Positions 58,818-59,247 of a stretch of DNA of 64,000 nt are shown here, in pieces. This DNA comes from Seonamhaeicola sp. Its GTDB lineage: Bacteria > Bacteroidota > Bacteroidia > Flavobacteriales > Flavobacteriaceae. The notes beneath the pieces were generated by a model that was not told the origin of the DNA, made no database searches, and saw only the letters and a list, made by a program, of their open reading frames with translations. Each line of letters begins with the position of its first letter. Position 1 is the stretch's first letter. The translations under genes were made by a program, and so were the position numbers. Where the stretch lies: contig NZ_JANQJQ010000043.1 of the NCBI RefSeq assembly GCF_028281565.1, forward strand, positions 62,001-126,000, written 5' to 3'.

Positions 58818-58854
58818 TATTTTTTCGTTTGTTCTAAATTAAAATTAGTTTTCA

Positions 58855-59238
58855 TGTCACACTGAGCGCAGTCGAAGTGCCCATCTGCTATTATATTTAT
58901 AATGAGTAGCATTTCTACATTCTGCCAAAATTTGAAGCATATCAAAATCGCCATTGATTAAAGCTTCTTTTTTGGCCCGCGTCCATTTCTTTAACTTTTT
59001 CTCGAAATAGATAGCTTGTAAAACATCATTGAAAACCTGATAAAATTTCATTTCCAATGGTCTCCGTCTGTAAGTGTAACAATTTATGTTTTTACCCAAT
59101 TGATGATAAGTCAGACGCTGATCTAAGTTATTCGTAATTCCGATGTAATATGAGCCATCCGCACATTTTAGAATATATACATAATATGAATTCATACTTT
59201 AGGACTTTCAAAGGTCTTCGACTGCGCTCAGACTGACA
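58855..59238. mobile_element. GIY-YIG gene flanked by 23-base inverted repeats (putative small mobile unit)
   Basis: Left end 58855-58877 (starts TGTCACACTGAGCGCAGT) and right end 59216-59238 (ends GCGCTCAGACTGACA) are inverted copies agreeing at 21 of 23 positions. Between them lies only the 112-codon GIY-YIG gene, giving a unit of 384 bases. The coding frame runs into the left repeat: the last seven residues ALRLRSV and the stop codon are repeat-encoded. Arrangement is that of a REP-type repeat pair with a nuclease gene. Mobility is inferred, not shown. Confidence 0.6.
58857..59195 (-). CDS. Single-domain GIY-YIG nuclease (URI/UPF0213-like)
   Basis: A 112-residue protein consisting almost only of the GIY-YIG domain: MNSYYVYILKCADGSYYIGITNNLDQRLTYHQLGKNINCYTYRRRPLEMKFYQVFNDVLQAIYFEKKLKKWTRAKKEALING. 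Conserved features include the two tyrosines of YVYILK...YYIGIT, Arg in LDQRL, the HQLGKN/T-YRRRP region and the EKKLKKW helix with its glutamate ligand. The C-terminus is specified by the flanking inverted repeat. Function unknown; such one-domain nucleases may cut DNA or act on repeats. Start ATG 59195. Confidence 0.93.
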   Translation of the reverse strand: MNSYYVYILKCADGSYYIGITNNLDQRLTYHQLGKNINCYTYRRRPLEMKFYQVFNDVLQAIYFEKKLKKWTRAKKEALINGDFDMLQILAECRNATHYKYNSRWALRLRSV

Positions 59239-59247
59239 TTAGGAATT

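Follow-up and report, generated by a model that had tools for sequence, protein, structure and literature searches.

A GIY-YIG nuclease gene bracketed by outward-facing TGTC hairpins in Seonamhaeicola, a likely REP/RAYT counterpart with an unrelated enzyme

REP elements are widespread bacterial repeats. In the parts considered here, Di Nocera et al. 2013 (PMC3733652) divide them into GTAG-tagged elements, linked to RAYTs, and CGTC-tagged elements, the tag often being TGTC, which include Neisseria dRS3 and Rickettsia RPE-4 and RPE-6. The CGTC-tagged REPs are described there as having an AT-starting stem of 8-9 bp, a loop of 4-5, a CCA tail and head-to-head dimers, and as having no dedicated transposase found for them; a count of the word GIY-YIG in that article gives 0. 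According to the portion of PMC8049555 used here, a RAYT is present in single copy, is inherited vertically and has not been observed on plasmids. Among the papers listed in an open-access library, we found none tying GIY-YIG proteins to REP-like repeats, which is no proof of novelty.

The window analysed here, a stretch of 64,000 nucleotides from Seonamhaeicola sp., carries, with trmH on one side and the gene for an M48 protease on the other, a unit in which two REP-like elements with outward tags bracket a nuclease gene (58855..59238, no strand assigned). The gene encodes a single-domain GIY-YIG protein of 112 amino acids (58857..59195, minus strand), with the core domain at residues 4-76. 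The left element, 3' of the gene (58855..58880, plus strand), is identified by its sequence, its inverted arm, its family members and covariation; it comprises a TGTC tag (58855-58858) and a CACT/AGTG stem around the loop GAGCGCAGTCGA (58864-58875). The right element, 5' of the gene, is inverted (59213..59238, minus strand), with its TGTC tag facing outward and a GTCT/AGAC stem flanking the same loop. The first-pass annotation of this DNA had described 23-base inverted repeats agreeing at 21 of 23 positions. They are the same pair, one base shorter, as the 24-nt arms measured here (58854-58877 and 59216-59239; 22/24 positions, or 92%, complementary; spacing 338 nt), and the 21 bases given there between the right repeat and the start codon are borne out for the 23-nt arm, the distance to the ATG being 20 bases for the 24-nt arm. 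Two occurrences of the 16-mer CTGAGCGCAGTCGAAG were counted in the window at up to three mismatches, compared to 0.12 expected, and none of 100 shuffles contained two. The flanking inverted-repeat (IR) score of the unit was 19, whereas 400 random placements in the window, made with slightly smaller flanks, reached 14 at most. We also ruled out an RNA family of Rfam here, as there were 0 matches at the gathering score.

The likeness to REP/RAYT systems proposed in the first-pass annotation, with a GIY-YIG protein in place of the Y1 transposase, holds for the anatomy, the enzyme being unrelated. Tagged short dispersed hairpins, inverted doublets and a repeat-bracketed partner gene are common to REP/REPIN-RAYT systems and to the system described here, as is the greater abundance of repeats where the partner is present; the window repeat itself has the many dispersed copies and inverted doublets that characterize REP/RAYT families. 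The differences concern the tag, which is GTAG in REP/RAYT and TGTC/CGTC here, and the partner, which is a Y1 tyrosine transposase (PF01797) in REP/RAYT and a GIY-YIG protein (PF01541) here. Moreover, RAYTs are described in the portion of the source used here as single-copy and off plasmids, whereas several GIY-YIG genes and repeat classes are found per genome, and on plasmids too. Relative to the CGTC-tagged REPs, the window repeats, which we call class A, share the tag in its TGTC form but have a 4-bp stem and a 12-base loop instead of the published stem, loop and tail. Because of this shorter stem and longer loop, class A is best placed next to the published CGTC families and not as a textbook case within them. 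Many class C and class D flanks elsewhere do have the published stem, loop and tail, and GIY-YIG genes have CGTC-type hairpins beside them in classes C, D and E, as well as in species that the considered parts of PMC3733652 name. The GIY-YIG nuclease is likely the causal partner of TGTC/CGTC-tagged REPs, that is, a counterpart of REP/RAYT built on an unrelated enzyme. Such a REP/REPIN system with a GIY-YIG partner is suggested by the bracketed gene, the gene-less doublets, the single repeat remnants, the clade-linked hairpins, the patchy occupancy of orthologous sites and the selection on the protein.

The first-pass annotation also held that the left repeat writes the last residues of the protein and its stop codon. 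This stands in so far as the left repeat encodes the C-terminal ALRLRSV, seven residues long, together with its TGA stop (58857..58880, minus strand), but the special meaning attached to it does not. A special role of the repeat-written C-terminus was ruled out, as repeats overlap the 3' end of the gene at other loci too, with different tails (e.g. L038, L047, L048 and L065). Since, in addition, the majority of 34 aligned relatives stop short of the repeat-written tail and the predicted structure has low confidence there (pLDDT of 55 and 49 over the final two blocks), the tail looks like an incidental side effect of the arrangement.

The class-A repeat consists of a TGTC tag, one base, a four-base stem half, the 12-base loop and the other stem half. 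The evidence for its hairpin structure is covariation, because folding energies were uninformative: thermodynamic DNA folding of two window copies did not favour the hairpin (z of -0.08 and 0.71). Copies from loci of the window genome were taken if they matched a set of loop variants. In 98-100% of the 55 obtained in this way, the four inner positions of the stem are paired, compared to partner-shuffled means of 43-81%, and the stem letters vary while pairing is kept (CACT/AGTG, CCCT/AGGG, GGTC/GACC, CCTC/GAGG, CCTT/AAGG and others). The fifth stem position shows no covariation, with 56% paired versus 61% in the shuffled sets. The class-A loop resembles d(GCGNAGC), a stable mini-hairpin of DNA, with G-A mismatches on either side.

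Searching the Seonamhaeicola genome (5.27 Mb in 48 contigs) for GTCANNNNGAGCGNAGTCGA at up to one mismatch retrieved 66 sites, with 0 for the reversed pattern. Together with these 66 class-A sites, the genome holds 82 class-C and 46 class-D sites (up to one, one and two mismatches, respectively). The window repeat occurs as single copies and as short inverted doublets with the tags outward, as in the REPIN layout, and six such doublets were found in this genome. When the listed sites of the genome and its relatives were considered together, class-A neighbours at most 90 bp apart comprised 17 outward, 1 inward and 7 tandem pairs, and class-C neighbours comprised 11 outward and 1 inward. These counts refer to 209 listed class-A sites (from genomes other than G001, G012, G027, G036 and G039) and 150 listed class-C sites (from genomes other than G001, G012, G015, G027 and G037), the sites of G000 being listed in part for both classes and the own-genome class-A sites being taken from the 66-site search. 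Class-D repeats number 4 to 94 per genome in 16 genomes chosen for class-D flanks, with reversed controls of 0; individual sites in these genomes are taken from among the matches listed. In G019, class-A tandem arrays reflecting replication-type amplification were found at C8:516547-516751 (period of about 46 bp), C15:263179-263697 (about 166 bp) and C19:156873-157376 (94-99 bp). Class-C doublets and units are of mixed stem: none of 16 was a homodimer, compared to about 3 expected, and 3% of draws gave 0, in a test on 136 hand-typed stems from the listed sites. The mixed-stem doublets and units were found in G000, G002, G004, G005, G011, G013, G020 and G034. An unexplained heterodimer preference of CGTC-tagged REPs is noted in the parts of Di Nocera et al. 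2013 (PMC3733652) considered here.

The Seonamhaeicola genome contains 13 GIY-YIG hits. Three of them, namely the window gene and the two hits closest to it, are each enclosed by an outward pair whose repeat starts are 354-362 bp apart, and other GIY-YIG genes of the genome sit between different hairpins, such as GTCATTTCCGCGAAGGCGGAAAT or TGTCACCCTGAACTTGTTTCAG. A flanking-IR score of at least 12.5 was reached at 25 of 39 loci (13 own and 26 from relatives), compared to 1 of 390 random placements in the same windows, and GTC tags mark both outer ends at 20 of these 39 loci, versus 4 of 390 placements. We also scanned named genomes with an alignment of related proteins and kept the best 80 out of at least 498 loci. 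A score of at least 12.5 was found at 54 of them, against 4 of 400 placements within the same loci, and a GTC tag on both arms with a score of at least 10 at 33, against none of 400.

Orientation was assessed at 37 own and relatives' loci and 79 named-genome loci (2 of 39 and 1 of 80 having been dropped for short flanks), and the placements for the null were made in the named-genome loci only. Both sides carried outward tagged hairpins at 16/37 and 24/79 loci, respectively, and at 0 of 400 random placements; inward tagged hairpins on both sides were present at 0/37, 5/79 and 0/400. The 24 outward-bracketed named-genome loci come from eight named phyla and from records without a phylum. Among 29 paralogs not chosen by repeat (38 GIY-YIG hits of nine genomes minus the 9 recruiting loci), nine were bracketed outward and two inward. 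Paired outward hairpins were undetected at 21/37, 55/79 and 20/29 GIY-YIG genes in the three samples; outward bracketing is, therefore, general but not universal. The expectation of the first-pass annotation that several single-domain GIY-YIG genes would be flanked by repeats is, thus, confirmed by the 16/37 and 24/79 counts. The generality that it left conditional also holds, and extends well beyond this repeat, with about seven hairpin classes involved.

Plasmids carry such loci as well. In a flank survey of 17 out of 33 matching plasmid records, 11/17 GIY-YIG loci had outward hairpins on both sides and 5/17 also had inward ones on both sides, counts that have no null of their own. Outward tagged hairpins lie on both sides of plasmid-record GIY-YIG genes in Azospirillum lipoferum, Sinorhizobium meliloti and Novosphingobium aromaticivorans, and of a Neisseria GIY-YIG gene located inside a repeat cluster; these species or genera also figure in PMC3733652. 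In nine genomes, we counted 1-10 GIY-YIG hits each, with differing repeat classes inside one genome. The association between GIY-YIG genes and tagged hairpins is near-certain. That dispersed repeats just happen to lie around a small gene, the repeats being terminators or mRNA stabilisers, roles hypothesised for REP-like hairpins in the parts of PMC3733652 considered, is extremely improbable given the absence of doubly outward hairpins from the 400 random placements, the linkage of repeat classes to nuclease clades and the content of the outward pairs, described below.

Every one of the 13 outward pairs spaced 241-600 bp among listed repeats contains a GIY-YIG gene or, in one case, a frameshifted copy, and no other recurrent gene was found inside these pairs. 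The possibility raised in the first-pass annotation, that the repeats flank many unrelated genes equally often, is contradicted by this result. Four of the 13 are class-C outward pairs of 300-550 bp picked by repeat coordinates alone in four relatives: 4/4 enclose GIY-YIG sequences, which are of the class-C kind and comprise three open frames and the frameshifted copy (in G005). Inward pairs at 241-600 bp among the listed sites were only two, both abutting a unit in G008, and class C has two tandem pairs at this spacing. A 178-bp outward pair contains a 24-residue nuclease remnant, as expected if doublets derive from units by internal loss. No GIY-YIG hit was obtained in an 883-bp outward pair of G000 or in a 118-bp class-D pair of G066.

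These data bear on the possibility that the nuclease is a passenger, that is, a gene resembling those of homing endonucleases that invades REP doublets which another enzyme moves. GIY-YIG is a classic homing-endonuclease fold, with I-TevI as the top fold neighbour of the window protein by Z (tied with others), the unit resembles a doublet with a gene in its spacer, and the repeats are present in genomes where no clade-A nuclease was detected. We nevertheless consider a passenger unlikely. It is less favoured because no gene other than GIY-YIG recurs in the outward pairs (13/13 listed pairs at 241-600 bp), and CGTC-tagged REPs are reported without an associated transposase in the parts of PMC3733652 considered. 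The gene of Azospirillum lipoferum, furthermore, has a whole doublet on each side, not one split doublet. A Y1 transposase as the partner of the repeats in the Seonamhaeicola genome was ruled out, as its three Y1 hits have no paired repeats of the scanned classes.

We mapped seven repeat classes onto a protein tree of 115 out of 119 loci (all except L036, L043, L063 and L068), of which 26/115 have no class label. The tree is built on few columns and leaves many forks without resolution, and the labels B, E and G rest on few loci, the B label of L034 on one side only. The classes require 11 changes on this tree (minimum 6), compared to a shuffled mean of 38.9, and none of 200 shuffles was as low. 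The nearest relative has the same class for 82/89 labelled proteins, for 76/89 when relatives above 70% identity are set aside and for 56/89 when those above 60% are. With relatives above 55% identity removed, the figure is 37/89, against a shuffled mean of 30 and a largest value of 44; at that point the figure is near chance, so the link between clade and class is close at short range and disappears with distance. For the labelled genes of the Seonamhaeicola genome, the nearest relative in other genomes predicts the class in 9/9 cases, even though each of classes A, C and D is abundant there. Related nucleases share a repeat class, and there are about seven hairpin classes, several per genome. 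The repeats are also more abundant where their nuclease is present: all eight genomes with a class-A clade nuclease (one of them, G002, assigned by its flanks and not by its place in the tree) have at least seven class-A repeats, compared to 5/51 others (Fisher 6e-7, uncorrected for kinship). These five genomes without a class-A nuclease carry 7-16 class-A repeats.

The trmH-M48 gene order of the window is kept in 21 of 25 trmH loci analysed, its own included (25 out of 29 loci, all except L198-L201; the other 4/25 have no M48 neighbour). The unit is absent from 19/21, contradicting the alternative stated in the first-pass annotation that orthologous loci would always be filled, and present in the Seonamhaeicola genome and G001, where the copy is frameshifted with both repeats kept. 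Four of the 19 unit-less gaps carry other GTCAT-tagged repeats (L174, L176, L177 and L181), and because of these the gap after trmH seems to have been hit repeatedly. A class-C doublet lies in the trmH gap of G002, and other hairpin-like pairs lie in that of G023, G005 and G012.

The empty-site alleles anticipated in the first-pass annotation were thus found at trmH-M48, and also at Azospirillum sufB-sufC and Sphingobium fnrL. In Azospirillum lipoferum 4B, the gene occupies the sufB-sufC junction and is flanked to the left and right by a whole doublet (L217:1000-1760), and in three Azospirillum relatives (95-98% identity over matched pieces) neither gene nor repeat is visible in the alignment. 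In the gap between fnrL and a response-regulator gene on Sphingobium plasmids, seven records span the filled stretch and four lack the gene; the alignment contains three filled and four gene-lacking records. TomTYG64 has a palindrome where sister plasmids carry the unit, its letters equalling what a deletion between the stems of the two repeats would leave, and TomTYG74 has an identical palindrome save two mismatches (L232 and L233 are the TomTYG64/TomTYG74 gap loci). Since the right repeat is within two mismatches of the TomTYG64 palindrome, a lone repeat with two changes also fits. Units occupy unrelated sites and end in inverted repeats. No target-site duplication was read in the empty-site alignments, whose flanks are too diverged to show one.

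A further possibility is that the nuclease, as a factor of the host or a selfish one, controls or prunes REPs by cutting extruded hairpins, the adjoining target providing autoregulation, and that the repeats spread through nothing but replication slippage and recombination. The branched-DNA nuclease Slx1 is one of the window protein's fold neighbours, the tandem arrays of G019 show replication-type amplification, and the Sphingobium palindromes (one exact, one with two mismatches) fit an inter-stem deletion, as well as a lone repeat. However, the presence or absence of whole units at orthologous sites and the 1-10 GIY-YIG hits per genome in nine genomes, with differing classes inside one genome, resemble mobile elements more than a housekeeping controller. 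On balance, a pruning role is quite improbable.

The window protein matches PF01541 (GIY-YIG, Pfam; E 4e-19) and no other profile, and all 34 aligned relatives match PF01541; Y17, R27, H31 and E65 are invariant across the 34 sequences of the alignment. Its fold neighbours are I-TevI, the highest by Z though tied with others, UvrC, Slx1 and UPF0213. By domain and fold it is a member of the GIY-YIG superfamily, with a predicted endonuclease activity. The closest solved relatives by sequence are UPF0213 proteins, 1ZG2 (E 2e-11) and 1YWL (E 3e-9), which are single-domain GIY-YIG proteins with a fold in common with it; we know of no repeats surrounding their genes. NCBIfam has no name for the window protein, and a scan of viral contigs with it, which reaches close relatives only, found no relative. 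The nuclease is under purifying selection: between the window gene and L032, L044 and L045, pN is 0.16-0.19 and pS 0.91-0.98 (cores only).

With the nuclease as the partner of the repeats, the unit would be the gene-bearing member of a REP/REPIN-like family, in which outward TGTC hairpins bracket the GIY-YIG gene, and the short doublets and single hairpins elsewhere would be its gene-less derivatives. The nuclease may recognise its own tagged hairpin, either in extruded form or in single-stranded DNA such as that of the lagging strand, and nick at the tag, after which host replication and repair would copy or insert the hairpin-bounded segment elsewhere. Such copying would move the nuclease unit and the doublets alike. 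GIY-YIG enzymes hydrolyse DNA without a covalent intermediate; therefore, joining would have to come from the host. This particular course, with hairpin recognition, nicking at the tag and copying by the host, is possible but somewhat doubtful. That the nuclease causes the spread is an inference, as are its binding, its cut site, a single-stranded or cruciform substrate and the mode of insertion. No transposition of the unit was seen in the genome comparisons.

More broadly, a class of mobile DNA spanning many phyla may be driven by a lone hydrolytic GIY-YIG nuclease, each lineage reading its own hairpin, a proposal that we put forward tentatively, as a little short of an even call. By the same tentative reading, the nuclease would produce genome-wide doublet populations without a transposase, recombinase or reverse transcriptase. 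If this is true, the class would account for the CGTC-tagged REPs, including Neisseria dRS3 and Rickettsia RPE-4 and RPE-6; a nuclease that is not a transposase could drive repeat populations across bacteria; and REP/RAYT-like systems would have arisen at least twice with unrelated enzymes. The present data name a candidate enzyme for one of the two large REP classes, reported in 2013, in the parts of PMC3733652 considered, without a dedicated one, with the prediction that each GIY-YIG clade recognises its own hairpin class. Several repeat classes occur in a single assembly, the Lutibacter MAG G066 (L122), with ten GIY-YIG hits in 2.7 Mb. It contains many near-identical doublets about 43 bp apart, and a repeat with the same stem adjoins a truncated nuclease.
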